Positions 4,100 through 16,903 of a stretch of DNA of 64,000 nt are shown here, piece by piece. Made by a program: the position numbers and the translations under genes. Below the pieces are notes generated by a model. That model was not told where the DNA came from. It was given only the letters and a program-made list of their open reading frames with translations, and searched no databases. Location: the NCBI RefSeq assembly GCF_900291475.1, contig NZ_OLMM01000005.1, positions 500,639 through 564,638 of the forward strand. The letters are read 5' to 3'. Source of the stretch: Acidaminococcus hominis. Lineage in GTDB: Bacteria > Bacillota > Negativicutes > Acidaminococcales > Acidaminococcaceae. Numbering within the stretch: the stretch's first letter is position 1; each line of letters opens with the position of its first letter.

Positions 4100-6373
4100 C
4101 TATTGGGACATGCTTTTGAGAAAATGGCCGGTTTTGGAATTGGTGCAGGAAAGCAGCTGTTCCGGGGTGCCCTGGAACAGGATTTCTCCGCCCCTGGTGC
4201 CTCCTTCCGGGCCCATATCGATGACCCAGTCCGCCTGGGCAATCAGTTCCAGCCGGTGGTCCACAATCACCACGGTGTTGTGGTTGTCCACCAGCTTGCG
4301 CAAAAGGGCGTACAGGGTTTCTACGTCCCGGTTGTGCAGCCCGGTGGTGGGCTCGTCCAGAATATAGATATTGCCCTTTTTCTGGAGTTCGCTGGCCAAC
4401 TTTACCCGTTGGACCTCGCCGCCTGACAGGGTGCTGGTGGGCTGACCCAGGGTCAGGTAGCCCAGGCCCACGTCCAAAAGGCTTTGCAGGGAGGTGCGGA
4501 TCTTTTTGTCCTGGAAAAAGTCCATGGCCTGTTCAATGGTCAGGTCCATGATATTTTCAATGTTCCGGCCCTGGAACTGGTAGCTGAGCGCGGTGGGGTT
4601 GAACCGGTGCCCGCCGCATTCCTCGCAGACCTCTTCCACCGCATCGGCAAAGGCCATATCGTAGGTGATTTTCCCTTTGCCGTGGCAGACCGGGCAGGCT
4701 CCTTTGGAATTGGAGCTGAACCAGCTGGCCGGCACGTTGTTTTCCTTGGCGAACAGCTTGCGGATCTGGTCCATGATGCCGGTGTAGGTGGCCGGGGTGG
4801 ACCGGATGGAGGTGCCAATGGGTTTCTGGTCGATGACAATGGCCTCTGGATAGCGGCTGGCAAATTCTCCGCAGACCAGGGAGGTTTTTCCAGAGCCGGC
4901 TACCCCGGTTACCGCCGTGAAAACGCCTTGGGGGATTTTCACGGTCAGGTTCTTCAGGTTGTGGAGGGTGGCATTTTCTACCAGAAAGGCTTCGCTCCAG
5001 GGTTTGGGCTGGCGGTTAATTTGGATTTTATGGAAAATGGCCTGGCCGGTCAGGGTTCCGGCCTGCTTCAGGCCGGCCACATCGCCCTGGTAGACAATCT
5101 GGCCCCCGTGGGAACCGGCCAGGGGGCCCAGTTCGATGACCTGATCTGCCAGTTCAATCATCTGCCGGTGGTGCTCCACAATCAGCACGTTGTTGTGCTG
5201 GTCCCGCAGCTGGAGCAGCAGGTGGCCAATGCGCTGGGCATCTGCGGGATGGAGGCCGGCAGTGGGCTCATCTAGGATATAGGTAATGTTGTTGAGGCTG
5301 TTGCCCAGGTGACGCACCAGCTTCAGCCGCTGGCGCTCTCCGCCGGACAGGGTGTCCGTGGGCCGGCCCAGGGAAAGATAGCCAATGCCCAGGTTCACCA
5401 TGCGTTCCAGGGTATAGGAAAGCTGCCGGGCCAGGGAAATGCCCATGGGGCTTTGGATGGCTTCCAACAAAGGCAGCAGTTCGCTGACGGAAAGGTTCTG
5501 GTAGTCCACAATATTGTAGCCGTTGATTTTGGAGGCCAGAGCCTTGGCGTTGAGCCCGGTGCCGTGACAGCTGGTGCAGGGGCCTTTGTGGACGTGGGTC
5601 ATAATTTCGTCCTGAAGGCTCTTTTTTAGTTTGCTGATGTCCCGGTTCAGGTACAGCCGGCGGAAACGGGGGAGTACCCCTTCGTAGTCCACATAGTCCA
5701 CCCGGCCGGTCTTGTTGGAGCGAATCTCGATTTCCGTTTTTTCCGGGGTACCGTTCCGGAGTATTTCCCATTCTTCCGGGGAGAAGTCCCGGAGTTTTTT
5801 GTCCGGATCCAGGTACTGGTTGGTTACATACAGGTCCGCCTGCCAGCCTGCAGCAAATTGGCTGAAGCAGATGGCGCCCTCCCGCAGGGTCTTGTTCTCG
5901 TCAAACAGGCTGTCCTCGTCCAGGGTCAGCCGTTCTCCCAGGCCGGTGCAGTCCGGGCACATCCCCAGGGGATGGTTGAAGGAGTAGGCCATGGAGCCCC
6001 CGGCACTGGGGACCCCAATGCGGGAAAACAGCAGCCGGAGCAGGGGCGCAGCGTCCACGGCGGTTCCCACGTTGGAACGGCTGCTGCTGCCCAGGGTCCG
6101 CTGGTCCACCACTACGGCCGGGGTCAGGTTTTCGATAAAGTCCACCTTGGGCCGTTCATAATGGGGCATCCGGTTCCGCAGGAACAGGGGGTAGGAGGCC
6201 TGCCATTCCCGGCTGCTTTCCACCGCAATGGTGTCGAAGGCCAGGGAACTTTTGCCGGAGCCGGAAACGCCGGTAAAGACCACAATCTTGTCCTTGGGAA
6301 TATCCACATCAATATTTTTCAGGTTATTTTCAGAAGCTCCGCGGATGCGGATCACATCTTCCTGGTTTGGCAT
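4100..6373 (-). CDS. UvrA-like ABC ATPase (UvrA2/DrrC type)
   Basis: A 757-residue tandem ABC ATPase of the UvrA family. It has two Walker A motifs ([12 protein letters not shown] and [12 protein letters not shown]), two ABC signatures ([23 protein letters not shown]), two Walker B/D-loops ([22 protein letters not shown]), and zinc-binding CxxC pairs (CPDC, CTSC, CPVC with CEEC). Canonical UvrA is about 940 residues; the missing length corresponds to the UvrB-binding and insertion regions. This therefore resembles the UvrA2/DrrC paralogues linked to drug or DNA-damage tolerance rather than core excision repair. ATG 6373 is preferred over TTG 6379 because GAAAGGAAG is then well spaced. It is transcribed alone. 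Confidence 0.88.
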
Positions 6374-6488
6374 ATACAATCTTCCTTTCAGCAGTTATTC
6401 CAATGCTATTTTAGCATAGCAAAAGAAAGTTCCCAGGAATTGACCCGGAATCCTGCATCCTTTGCCGCAGCTCATTTCTTAGAAAAAA

Positions 6489-7049
6489 GGGGGTGTGAAA
6501 TAATACCCCCGTAAGCAAAAACGGCTTGCGAGCTCAAAAGAGTTCGCAAGCCGTTTTTGTTATTCTTTATAACCGTATCCTAATAAACTTCCTCAGTCAG
6601 TCCTGCGGACTGACTGCCCACACGCTTTGCGCTCATATCCAATTCTCAAGGCTGTATGCCGCAGAGAATTGGTTAATATGAGCCATGTGATAGCGGCCTG
6701 CAAAGTGAACCTGGAAGGTGAAGCTGAGCAGCATGCCGCGAACCACTCAGGGGCCAGTCTTAGGCCTATACGAGTCATGTGCAAAACGGGTATAGCAAAG
6801 GAGCATAGTTTGTAAATACCTGCACTACCCTAGTCTATTGCTTGACCAGTAGCGGCATAGAAGGCTTCCTGAGTGGTTCGCCGTGCTCCGTTCTCCTTCA
6901 CCCTGCGGGTTCGGCTCACGGACGGCTATCACATAGGTCGCATATTCCAAATGTCATCGGGAAACTGATTGACATTTGGATGCGACCGTAAAGCGTGAAG
7001 GAAGTGTCGCCGTAAGGCGACGATAGAAGTTTCCTTATTTCACACCCCC
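6489..7049. repeat. 560-bp inverted element of paired hairpin modules
   Basis: This non-coding stretch is bounded by perfect 15-bp inverted repeats (GGGGGTGTGAAATAA at 6489-6503, its complement at 7035-7049). Inside, 6585-6751 and 6868-7032 are two inverted modules sharing a fixed order of boxes: AAACTTC, a short hairpin (6594-6616; 7006-7021), CACGCTTTRCG (6621-6631; 6987-6997), a two-part hairpin with a 3-base bulge (6632-6682; 6936-6987), CATGTGATAGC (6684-6694; 6925-6935) and CGAACCACTCAGG (6739-6751; 6868-6880). The hairpin arms differ between modules yet pair perfectly within each. I see no protein in it. It could be a MITE-like element or a structured RNA; I do not recognise the family. 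Confidence 0.7.
6516..6559. terminator. Strong bidirectional terminator hairpin
   Basis: A perfect 16-bp stem (CAAAAACGGCTTGCGA and its complement) with a 12-base loop, A-rich on the left and T-rich on the right in either reading direction. It lies in the left arm of the inverted element and is the first clear terminator downstream of the minus-strand rlmD gene. Confidence 0.8.
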
Positions 7050-7056
7050 AGATTTT

Positions 7057-8442
7057 TTAGGAATTTTCACTGCGGCTGAACAGGGCCACGCTTTCCACAT
7101 GGCAGGTGTGGGGGAACACGTCCACGGGCTGGACTTTGCGCAGCACAAAGCCGTGGTCCCGGAGAATGGCGGCATCTCGGGCCAGAGAGGCCGGATTGCA
7201 GGATACGTACACCACCCGTTTGGGGCGCACCTGGGCGATGGCGTCCAGAACACGCTTTTCGCAGCCGGCCCGGGGCGGATCCAGCACCACCACATCGGGG
7301 CGGCTGCCGTGACGCACCAGGTCAGGCAGTTCCTTGGCGGCATCGGCGCAGATGAACTCCGTATTGGTTACGTGGTTGTGTTTGGCGTTTTCGTGGGCGT
7401 CGTGGATGGCGGCGGGCACAATTTCAATGCCCAGGGCCCGGCGGGCCTTTTGGGCCAAAAACAGGGTAATGGTTCCTGTGCCGCAGTAGGCATCGATGAC
7501 GTTTTCCTTGCCGGTCAGAGCGGCGTACTGGAGGGCGGTTTCGTACAGCAGTTCCGCCTGCTCTGTGTTTACCTGGAAGAAGGAATGGGGAGAAATGGCA
7601 AAGGTGAATTTGCCCAGTTGGTCATGGATGAAGCCGGGGCCCCAGATGACCTTGTTTTTCTGGCCCATGATTACGTTGGTATGCCGGGTATTGATGTTCT
7701 GGACCAGAGTGGTGAAACCGGGAATCTGGGCCCTCAGCAGCTGGGCCAGTTCCTTCAGGTGGGGCACCACAGATTCGTTGGTGATGAGCACCGCCATCAC
7801 TTCCCCGGTTTTTACCCCGGTGCGGCCCATAATGTGACGGACCAGGCCCTTCCGGCTGTCCTCTTCCAGCGCGGCAATATGGTATTGGGTCATCCACTCC
7901 CGGGTAATCTGGGCGATTTTGTTGTTGGTTTCCTGCTGAATCAGGCAGTCTTTCACATCGATGACCTGATGGGTTCCAGCGGCAAAGCAGCCAATCCGCA
8001 GCTGGTGGTTTTTGCTTTGTGCGACGGGCACCTGCATCTTGTTCCGGTAATGCCAGGGGTGAAGGGCTCCCAGGGTGTCCAGGACCTGCACCTTGTGGAA
8101 ATGGCCAATCCGTTCCAGGGCATCTACCACGGTCTGCCGTTTATTGGCCAGCTGGGCCGGGTAGGACAGATGCTGGAGCTGGCAGCCCCCGCATTGCTTG
8201 TACACCGGGCAGGGCGGTTTTTCCCGGTCCGGGGAGGGTACCAGTACCTTTACCAGCTTGGCCTGGCCGTAGCTCTTTTTTACCAGGGTAACCTGGGCCT
8301 GCACCCGTTCCCCCGGCAGGGCACCGGGAATAAAGAAGGTGAAGCCGCTGACTTTGCCCACTCCTTCGCCGGAGCTGCCCAGGCCGTTAATGGTGCATTC
8401 GATATTTTCTTTGGGTTTAAATTGCATATGTGTATGTTCCAT
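7057..8442 (-). CDS. rlmD: 23S rRNA (uracil-5-)-methyltransferase RlmD/RumA family
   Basis: A 461-residue SAM-dependent RNA m5U methyltransferase, acting on 23S rRNA in the cytoplasm. It has an N-terminal TRAM domain (residues about 7-65), a 4Fe-4S cluster site beginning CPVYKQCGGCQLQ, the SAM motif VIDAYCGTGTITLFLA, and the catalytic-cysteine motif VSCNPASLARD near the C-terminus. Firmicute proteins of this family may also modify other 23S positions (RlmCD), so the exact uridine is not certain. A promoter TTGCGT-N17-TATAAT puts the transcript start only a few bases before ATG 8442; either the message is nearly leaderless or translation begins at the in-frame ATG 8427. The stop is 8 bp from the inverted element. 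Confidence 0.9.
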   Translation of the reverse strand: MEHTHMQFKPKENIECTINGLGSSGEGVGKVSGFTFFIPGALPGERVQAQVTLVKKSYGQAKLVKVLVPSPDREKPPCPVYKQCGGCQLQHLSYPAQLANKRQTVVDALERIGHFHKVQVLDTLGALHPWHYRNKMQVPVAQSKNHQLRIGCFAAGTHQVIDVKDCLIQQETNNKIAQITREWMTQYHIAALEEDSRKGLVRHIMGRTGVKTGEVMAVLITNESVVPHLKELAQLLRAQIPGFTTLVQNINTRHTNVIMGQKNKVIWGPGFIHDQLGKFTFAISPHSFFQVNTEQAELLYETALQYAALTGKENVIDAYCGTGTITLFLAQKARRALGIEIVPAAIHDAHENAKHNHVTNTEFICADAAKELPDLVRHGSRPDVVVLDPPRAGCEKRVLDAIAQVRPKRVVYVSCNPASLARDAAILRDHGFVLRKVQPVDVFPHTCHVESVALFSRSENS

Positions 8443-11724: not shown

Positions 11725-11982
11725 ATATGACATGAGCGATGAAAAGAAGAGTACCTTCGGCGCTGCGGCACAGAGAGCTTCTGTTTTGGTGAGAGGAAGA
11801 GCGGGCAAAGAGGAGAACATGGCCTTGGAGCTGATGGCTGAAGTGCAGTAAGCCGTCTGGGTGTGCCCATTACAGCACTGGAGTATCCGACCAAGTCACG
11901 TACTCGAGAGGCTTGGCCTGGCCAAGCGAAGCTGGGTGGTACCACGATGCTTTCGTCCCTGCAGGGGGCGGAGGCTTTTTTT
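11725..11982 (+). promoter_or_regulatory. T-box leader, methionine-type, upstream of metA
   Basis: A T-box riboswitch that senses uncharged tRNA. The landmarks are in order: AGAGTACC, the stem I AGAGAGC element (11773-11779), GGTGAGAGG, the conserved antiterminator box GGGTGGTACCACG (11934-11946), and a terminator hairpin with a run of seven T residues around 11976-11982. A likely specifier is ATG at 11819-11821, following GAGAAC, which fits tRNA-Met. The downstream gene makes the methionine precursor O-acetylhomoserine, so uncharged tRNA-Met should permit readthrough. The exact specifier register is inferred by position. Confidence 0.85.
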
Positions 11983-13495: not shown

Positions 13496-13583
13496 GGATG
13501 GGTGTCCGAGTGGTCGAAGGTGCTTGACTCGAAATCAAGTATACCGCAAGGTATCGTGGGTTCGAATCCCACCCCATCCGCCA
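13496..13583 (+). tRNA. tRNA-Ser (anticodon CGA)
   Basis: The acceptor arm GGATGGG/CCCATCC closes a class II tRNA with a long variable arm (TACCGCAAGGTA region). The anticodon stem CTTGA/TCAAG holds the loop CTCGAAA, with CGA at 13530-13532. GGTTCGAATCC forms the T arm. The discriminator is G13580 and CCA is encoded (13581-13583). It reads UCG codons. Confidence 0.97.
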
Positions 13584-16650: not shown

Positions 16651-16776
16651 CCCGGCGGGCTGCAGCAACAGGCACCCCTGCGGCACATGAAGGGATCTGC
16701 TTATTGCTGCTTCCTTCCGGACCTGACAAGGTTCACAGGACTCCATTGCGCAGGACCCGCCGCTGCAGTCCGCCGG
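16651..16776 (-). ncRNA. ffs: Signal recognition particle RNA (4.5S type)
   Basis: Read on the minus strand, the ends pair (CCGGCGGACTGCAGC with GCTGCAGCCCGCCGG) and the tip carries the conserved SRP domain IV core with GTCAGGTCCGGAAGG and AAGCAGCA. This short single-hairpin RNA binds Ffh to target membrane proteins. Length is about 126 nt. It lies downstream of tRNA-Ser(GGA) on the same strand and is followed by a terminator. End points are set by the base-paired termini and are approximate. Confidence 0.93.
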
Positions 16777-16813: not shown

Positions 16814-16903
16814 TGGCGGAGAGTGAGGGATTCGAACCCTCGATACGGTTTCCCGTATACACGCTTTCCAGGCGTGCTCCTTCAACCGCTCGGACAACTC
16901 TCC
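16814..16903 (-). tRNA. tRNA-Ser (anticodon GGA)
   Basis: On the minus strand, GGAGAGT/ACTCTCC acceptor arm, a long variable arm (ATACGGG...CCGTAT) and GGTTCGAATCC T arm. The anticodon stem CACGC/GCGTG encloses CTGGAAA, giving anticodon GGA. A CCA end is encoded at 16814-16816. It reads UCC and UCU codons and is the second serine tRNA in the window. Confidence 0.96.

Follow-up and report, generated by a model that had tools for sequence, protein, structure and literature searches.

The bacterial repeats that come closest to the element described here fall into several groups. REP sequences and BIMEs, which are linked to RAYT, are short interspersed imperfect hairpins that occur in inverted pairs, carry a conserved foot motif and are non-autonomous. 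Two hairpins, foot boxes, mismatches and duplication-free insertion are features of the REP/IS200/IS605 family. The Mega resistance element reportedly inserts at the 3' end of rumA. Repeats of the ERIC/RU, BOX and RUP kinds are about 100-170 bp long, intergenic, foldable and presumed to be moved in trans. Outside bacteria, selfish-looking palindromes pile up in the non-coding DNA of Volvox organelles (PMC2670323). The small mobile sequences of bacteria are the subject of a review (PMC2229807).

Here we analyse positions 6489-7049 of a window from Acidaminococcus hominis, the window being the whole stretch of 64,000 nucleotides. The locus contains two copies of a hairpin cassette that resembles the REP/BIME, ERIC-type and organellar repeats in the traits just named, duplication-free insertion and movement in trans being putative for it. 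In contrast to REP/BIME, the cassette is a two-hairpin unit of ~120 bp, is nested in hairpins and has its sequence replaced while the fold is kept; moreover, the A. hominis genome has no Y1 match and Y1 shows no association with the cassette. Unlike ERIC/RU, BOX and RUP, it crosses genera and families with covarying stems, nests in hairpin tips in its own genome and lies at gene 3' ends elsewhere. It differs from the Volvox palindromes in having fixed boxes and a two-hairpin fold that is kept between bacterial families. We recognised no published account of the cassette in the literature outside subscription papers. It is filed here with the small mobile bacterial sequences (REP, ERIC, BOX and similar) and is not assigned to any named family, since the search turned up no defining mover of any of these kinds.

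Architecture of the locus

Comparison within the genome identifies 6489-7049 as one copy of a composite repeat (Table 1). Around its perfect 15-bp terminal inverted repeats, a repeat scan finds a wider 30-nt inverted pair of 80% identity, and an end similar to the left terminal repeat, GGGSTGTGAAATAAT, is found again at other copies of the base element. Two modules lie inside, head to head, the second on the minus strand with its boxes and hairpins in the same order as the first.

Table 1. Features of the composite repeat and its edge, in window coordinates
Feature	Position	Strand	Evidence and remarks
A-tract before left terminal repeat	6483-6488		sequence
Left terminal inverted repeat, base element	6489-6505	+	GGGGGTGTGAAATAA 6489-6503; 15 bp perfect against 7035-7049
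Terminator-like hairpin, base element	6516-6559	.	20-nt arms, 95%; also in other copies
Left-arm hairpin CAGTCAGTCC/GGACTGACTG	6594-6616	.	sequence and fold
Box CACGCTTTGCG, start of module 1	6621-6631		sequence
Hairpin cassette 1 (TGCG...GAACCACT), left hairpin-tip site	6628-6747	+	model match 6622-6747, 126.8 bits; exact ends deduced by comparison with nested copies
Hairpin A of cassette 1	6632-6682	+	7-bp stem, 3-nt bulge, 9-bp stem; covariation
Conserved box CATGTGATAGC between hairpins A and B	6684-6694	+	GTG pairs with CAC 6744-6746
Hairpin B of cassette 1, with internal loops	6687-6746	+	fold and covariation
Box GAACCACT, end of module 1	6740-6747		sequence
Base-element core, weak predicted structure	6749-6868	+	own-genome matches, alignment A2
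Hairpin cassette 2, right hairpin-tip site	6872-6990	-	model match 6872-6996, 129.7 bits
Hairpin A of cassette 2	6936-6987	-	7 bp, 3-nt bulge, 11 bp
Right-arm hairpin TCGCC/GGCGA	7007-7020	.	sequence
Right terminal inverted repeat, base element	7035-7049	-	TTATTTCACACCCCC; sequence

Folded alone as DNA, hairpin A reaches a z-score of -6.3 in cassette 1 and of -7.4 on the minus strand in cassette 2, with 0 of 200 shuffles as good in either case and the bulge on the same side in both. The whole modules fold with z-scores of -4.1 and -4.6 (0 of 200 shuffles as good in each). The core folds no better than chance (z -0.7, 53 of 200 shuffles as good). The entire element reaches z -16 (0 of 100 shuffles as good), in part because the two inverted modules can pair together. 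Sequence and z-scores thus confirm the inverted modules with hairpins between 15-bp inverted repeats of the preliminary description, and the paired arms that it had reported, with a 3-nt bulge on the same side, are recovered in the folds as 7 and 9 bp against 7 and 11 bp. Its statement that the shape fits neither a terminator nor a BIME is correct for the modules, but the base element does have a terminator-like hairpin. This hairpin is near-palindromic and is reported on the plus strand by the terminator scan; it is the only place in the element where a G+C-rich stem is followed by a T-run as in an intrinsic terminator, and the scan reports no terminator on the cassettes.

The right neighbour is a TrmA/RumA-family gene (7057-8442, minus strand, PF05958), with 7 nt between its stop codon and the end of the element. 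The left neighbour is a UvrA-like ORF (4100-6379, minus strand) of only 759 aa with a match to the UvrA DNA-binding domain. Elsewhere in the window, Rfam places a T-box leader at 11730-11963, an SRP RNA at 16663-16762 and tRNAs at 13496-13580 and 16817-16903.

A base element that is filled at its hairpin tips

The base element is ~330 bp long and consists of the 15-bp terminal inverted repeats, the terminator-like hairpin and a core of ~120 bp. In the own-genome stretches examined, the core gives 32 matches above 100 bits plus weaker relics; three partial cores were left out of alignment A2. Under strict filters the core model matches one of 300 class genomes, that of A. hominis itself, and none of the 299 others. 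A BLAST search of the genome with the window copy returns 143 pieces. To map this mosaic in 30 own-genome stretches, we cut the window copy into its two arms, its two cassettes and the core between them, and the order of these parts proved modular. Base elements with nothing but left arm, core and right arm occur three times in L060 and also in L061 and L065. Other base elements hold a cassette at the left junction, at the right junction or at both, in either orientation. The cassette-free junctions are hairpin tips, for example CTTCCTGCA-AGCG-TGTAGGAAG and GGCCCCTACA-CGCTTGCAGGGGCC.

The base element resembles MITEs in its terminal inverted repeats of 15 bp, its copy number of about 30 and its size of a few hundred bp. 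It may differ from them in that we recognised no target duplication at its ends when flanks were read by eye, and found no longer partner with the same ends by exact match, except for one copy that carries an insertion. In the exact end-sequence search, all 13 matches to GGGTGTGAAATAA lie at base elements. Comparison with the congeners revealed no empty orthologous site. In L044 (3444-5380), an insertion with transposase ORFs (rve domain) occupies the right-arm hairpin TCGCC/GGCGA of a base element; this insertion is partly repeated around an N in the assembly. An IS256-type transposase was considered as mover of the base element and rejected, the genome having no PF00872 match.

In two of eight congeners, a short terminator-like palindrome GGTGTGAA...TTCACACC with the terminal sequence of the base element lies downstream of the homologous TrmA-family gene (L342 3129-3166 and L344 3126-3151). 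Its likeness to the joined terminal repeats is a lead only: a simple terminator hairpin may have been the starting point, with the base element itself growing within its loop.

The cassette family in the A. hominis genome

The cassette is about 105-130 bp long and comprises two hairpins flanked at the foot by short conserved boxes, in the order TGCG - hairpin A - CATGYGATAGC - hairpin B - GCGAACCRCT. The pattern GATAGC-N30-58-GCGAACC matches the genome 118 times (78 forward and 40 reverse, one of the listed matches, C7:180209, looking like chance), while the reversed control gives 0 and 1. A hammerhead-like reading of GATAG...GAAC was dropped; a second cassette family has AAAA...TGAC instead. 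The covariance model finds 132 cassettes in 49 own-genome sources, partial ones counted. Cassettes also interrupt cassettes, near the GA of the second hairpin, in L058, L068 and L069. Alignment A1 has 66 rows and leaves out L047:3374-3501 and four partial or interrupted cassettes.

The two halves of the cassette are partly shuffled against each other. Among 121 of the 132 cassettes, the remainder having been dropped for a length below 115 nt or a missing central box, clustering at 80% identity yields 15 A-half types, 16 B-half types and 46 combinations. The halves share 1.75 bits, against 0.91 when shuffled and about 3.4 for full linkage, and thus have been exchanged often but not freely. On contig C8, a unit of 791 bp that contains two cassettes and a relic of the core is present in three tandem copies (L323 10091-12123, G000:C8 ~66.1-68.1 kb). 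Among the ORFs of at least 180 aa near the multi-cassette arrays of this contig, inspection by eye reveals no evident mover apart from one transposase-like ORF.

Homologues in other genomes

The preliminary description had made its reading depend on homologues with covariation in other genomes, and a model search finds them. At E<=0.001, model R1 matches 63 of 380 class genomes, which is 62 of the 379 other than that of A. hominis, and 41 of these others reach E<=1e-8. The matching genomes span 21 of 102 genera, with the genus of A. hominis counted. The search used strict filters and scored only nine candidates per genome, so that copy numbers in class genomes are lower bounds, and many matches in genus g52 comprise the second hairpin only. 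Under the same strict filters, the model finds the cassette in none of eight congeners. Plasmids and phages were considered as carriers and rejected: the window cassette matches no plasmid, the Butyrivibrio cassette has one weak plasmid match and no phage match, and the cassette pattern occurs in one viral contig.

A pattern scan of named genome contigs gives 76 stretches, of which 45 carry one and the same cassette sequence. The 31 others come from Lachnospiraceae, Butyrivibrio, Peptococcaceae, Limosilactobacillus, Ligilactobacillus, Konateibacter, Streptococcus thoraltensis and Thermacetogenium, some genomes contributing several. In 12 of these 31 stretches the C-terminus of a TrmA-family protein can be read into the cassette, and 19 show no such frame, five of the 31 being covered for less than 380 nt upstream. 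PF05958 confirms the family for L178; for the others it is assigned by motif. Read by eye, the first arm of hairpin A re-encodes the gene end (HVE-xVxLL) at these tails, and a second copy of the gene 3' end follows the cassette.

The fixed sequence is found in L105 (3328-3458) and 44 further stretches from streptococci, Gemella, Gardnerella, Carnobacterium and others. The mef ORF of the L105 locus passes the NCBIfam cut-off for Mef(A); farther on lies a partial Msr-family ORF, which does not reach its own cut-off. This mef ORF is present in 35 of the 45 loci (36 of the 45 with more than 1,400 nt downstream), so the fixed cassette seems to travel with Mega. A TrmA-type motif lies upstream in 13 of the 45. 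A text search counts no occurrence of 'hairpin' in the paper on Mega. Unlike Mega, the TrmA-family gene of S. thoraltensis (L167) holds a related cassette without the fixed Mega sequence.

Other surroundings are diverse. Class copies lie after 23S rRNA, and the L181 copy lies between 23S and 5S rRNA according to Rfam. In L232 (1856-2451), tandem cassettes with a period of 118 bp stand at the end of a 72-aa ORF that by eye looks like a metal-binding protein, and the L234 cassette is at the end of what looks like groEL (by eye). The L198 cassette (1501-1609) sits inside a cobalamin riboswitch (1359-1655) that still scores above the Rfam cut-off.

Covariation and the form of the fold

Among the 102 foreign matches, 93 of them distinct, each of the 34 stem pairs shows changes in both partners. 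Such both-side changes amount to 775 cells, compared to 201 in shuffles, and 93.7% of stem cells are paired, compared to 25.9-37.9% with partners slid. Alignment A4, in which identical rows are counted once, was fitted to the model, and the 93.7% therefore leans upward; the slid and shuffled controls share this alignment. In the MAFFT alignment of own-genome copies, both-side changes affect 25 of 34 pairs, and 97.4% of cells pair, a figure that likewise leans upward as the structure is the RNAalifold consensus of the same alignment. The GTG/CAC and GCG/CGC pairs covary as well, the middle pair being UA in 43 and CG in 18 of 66 own-genome rows. One of five measures points in the opposite direction for own-genome copies: further pair types number 50 against 59 when shuffled, a value reached by 500 of 500 shuffles. 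Our reading is that stems have few non-Watson-Crick pairs, so that shuffling creates more types.

Taken together, the pair covariation in foreign and own-genome copies strongly supports the earlier view that the fold rather than the sequence is selected. What has to be withdrawn is the notion of compensatory change within one locus. The two modules are paralogues from a family of more than 100 copies, and compensation is hence a property of this family.

The stems contain few G.T pairs. Among own copies, G.T or T.G occupies 26 of 2242 stem cells, and among foreign ones 48 of 3002 (1.2-1.6%), compared to 109 of 1446 (7.5%) in 66 distinct tRNAs from the examined loci as paired by ARAGORN. Cassette-stem G.T is thus about 5- to 6.5-fold rarer than in tRNAs, a comparison between related sequences for which Fisher values are not probabilities. 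RNA stems usually tolerate G.U, a tolerance not expected of DNA stems or of arms that are copies of one another. In foreign copies G.T outnumbers A.C by 48 to 12. In own copies the counts are 26 and 23, 14 of the A.C being at one column; the tRNA set has no A.C pairs, which may only reflect the pairing rules of ARAGORN. The excess of G.T over A.C in foreign copies suits one folding strand, either ssDNA or RNA, rather than a symmetrical cruciform. From the rarity of G.T together with this excess, we consider a single strand of DNA the likelier form under selection, with RNA as its chief competitor. Rfam 15 at the gathering threshold places no family over the cassette in the window, in 12 named loci and in 15 class loci, and the relaxed threshold gives nothing credible for it.

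Insertion sites and the search for a possible mover

In genome G248, two spacers after 23S rRNA have no cassette and read CTTTCAAAGC and CTTTCAGAGC, and the filled spacer reads CTTT-TGCTGACC...GACCGC-CAAGAGC. With two further single-base differences in its near flanks, the filled site reads as an insertion without target duplication. It is the sole filled site outside the A. hominis genome for which the comparison draws on empty sites from its own genome, another copy in G248 (L219) differing too much to compare. Within the A. hominis genome, the reading of nested and empty sites likewise suggests that no target duplication arises.

Flank complementarity was tested with sites of identical flanks merged and sites too near to contig ends left out. 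In the A. hominis genome, 43% of 112 distinct sites reach a score of at least 6, compared to 12% with swapped flanks. In other genomes (n=88) the measure does not exceed its control, with 3.33 against 2.99 for swapped flanks and a largest value of 3.37 in 300 shuffles, and we therefore claim hairpin-tip targeting for the A. hominis genome only. A version of the test with narrower offsets, which could not reach the own-genome stems, shows no excess in the A. hominis genome (2.65 against 2.57) and a slight one elsewhere (3.04 against 2.65, with 2.91 as the maximum over 200 shuffles); outside the A. hominis genome the two versions thus give conflicting results. Relative to neighbouring ORFs, which were called crudely, cassette orientation shows no clear bias, with 18 co-directional and 13 anti-directional upstream and 23 and 26 downstream.

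Searches for Y1 transposase, for reverse transcriptase and with the base-element ends yielded no candidate enzyme for the cassette. Y1_Tnp (PF01797) has no match in the A. hominis genome, the richest in cassettes among the genomes seen, and occurs in 17 of 40 cassette-positive and 18 of 40 other genomes. RVT_1 is found in 14 of 40 cassette-positive and 12 of 40 other genomes. Neither domain is associated with the cassette, and the reverse transcriptase counts give no support to a derivation from group II introns.

Discussion

The preliminary description left a choice between a structured RNA and a MITE with DNA hairpins of importance. Interspersed copies in large number and in both orientations, nesting in hairpin tips and in other cassettes, and stems that avoid G.T tip the balance towards the second option, although the locus is not one MITE: a lineage-specific base element with terminal inverted repeats holds an inserted, far more widespread cassette. 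We consider it somewhat probable that the modules are copies of a non-autonomous mobile DNA hairpin cassette that is recognised by shape, inserts cleanly and is moved in trans. The shape of one folded strand, rather than its sequence, would be recognised by a putative structure-recognising enzyme acting in trans. The unit would insert cleanly, without target duplication and preferably into DNA that is already palindromic. In the A. hominis lineage, the cassette would have spread into the hairpin tips of the repeat with terminal inverted repeats, giving rise to the nesting seen at 6489-7049. Copy number, both orientations, nesting, filled and empty sites, wide distribution and compensatory change in all stem pairs are shown here, and movement, a DNA hairpin as substrate and the enzyme are inferred. 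A broader reading is put forward more tentatively. The cassettes may belong to an undescribed superfamily across much of the Bacillota, in which a mover of folded strands inserts into hairpin tips and into TrmA/RumA tails and elements grow by nesting; the Mega resistance element would carry one such cassette near an end.

The main rival regards the cassette as a functional structured RNA, acting in stability, processing or termination in transcript 3' ends and rRNA spacers and dispersed by selection. Covariation of every stem pair, internal loops that look conserved by eye, the excess of G.T over A.C in foreign copies (48 to 12) and copies that are co-directional at gene 3' ends (a TrmA-family reading in 12 of 31 non-Mega stretches) or follow 23S rRNA are what such an RNA would display. 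On the other hand, tRNAs contain G.T pairs about 5 to 6.5 times as often, orientation shows no clear bias towards neighbouring ORFs as called crudely, eight of eight congeners have no match and Rfam has none either. In addition, cassettes stand in opposite orientations inside one base element, so that a transcript through the 6489-7049 copy holds one of them antisense. We regard a functional RNA as unlikely. Template switching at palindromes could perfect and extend the arms without any enzyme, with homologous recombination spreading the copies, and it would account for mostly Watson-Crick stems with few G.T and for halves partly shuffled around a shared central box. Clean insertion of whole units at unrelated sites, including those beside rRNA, is hard to obtain in this way alone, and we give such an origin little credence.

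Two further rivals keep a mobile cassette and name a different mover. As a REP/BIME-like element moved by RAYT or by an IS200/IS605-type Y1 transposase, the cassette would be a PATE with end hairpins. The fold does have end hairpins, and two hairpins, foot boxes, internal mismatches and insertion without target duplication would all fit. The absence of PF01797 from the most cassette-rich genome and the lack of association across 80 genomes nevertheless make this quite unlikely. A recombinase acting on TrmA/RumA 3' ends could alternatively have left the cassettes as minimal attachment-site satellites that later adapted to other palindromes. The re-encoded C-terminus and the second copy of the gene 3' end, both read by eye, recall the attL/attR of gene-tail integrators, and tandem arrays exist (L232), but most counted copies lie away from TrmA genes (19 of 31 non-Mega stretches without a frame). 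To our judgement, such an origin is improbable.

If the reading as a mobile, shape-recognised hairpin cassette is true, a tiny element that is maintained by its shape has spread among Firmicutes, where it sits beside rRNA, inside a cobalamin riboswitch, in the tails of genes and near the streptococcal mef. It would be mobile DNA that is recognised by structure rather than by sequence, a logic comparable to that of integron attC sites. The search for the enzyme would become concrete, with strains that differ in recent cassette copies as the material. For annotation, the family holds a warning, as foldable and covarying repeats can pass for regulatory RNAs.
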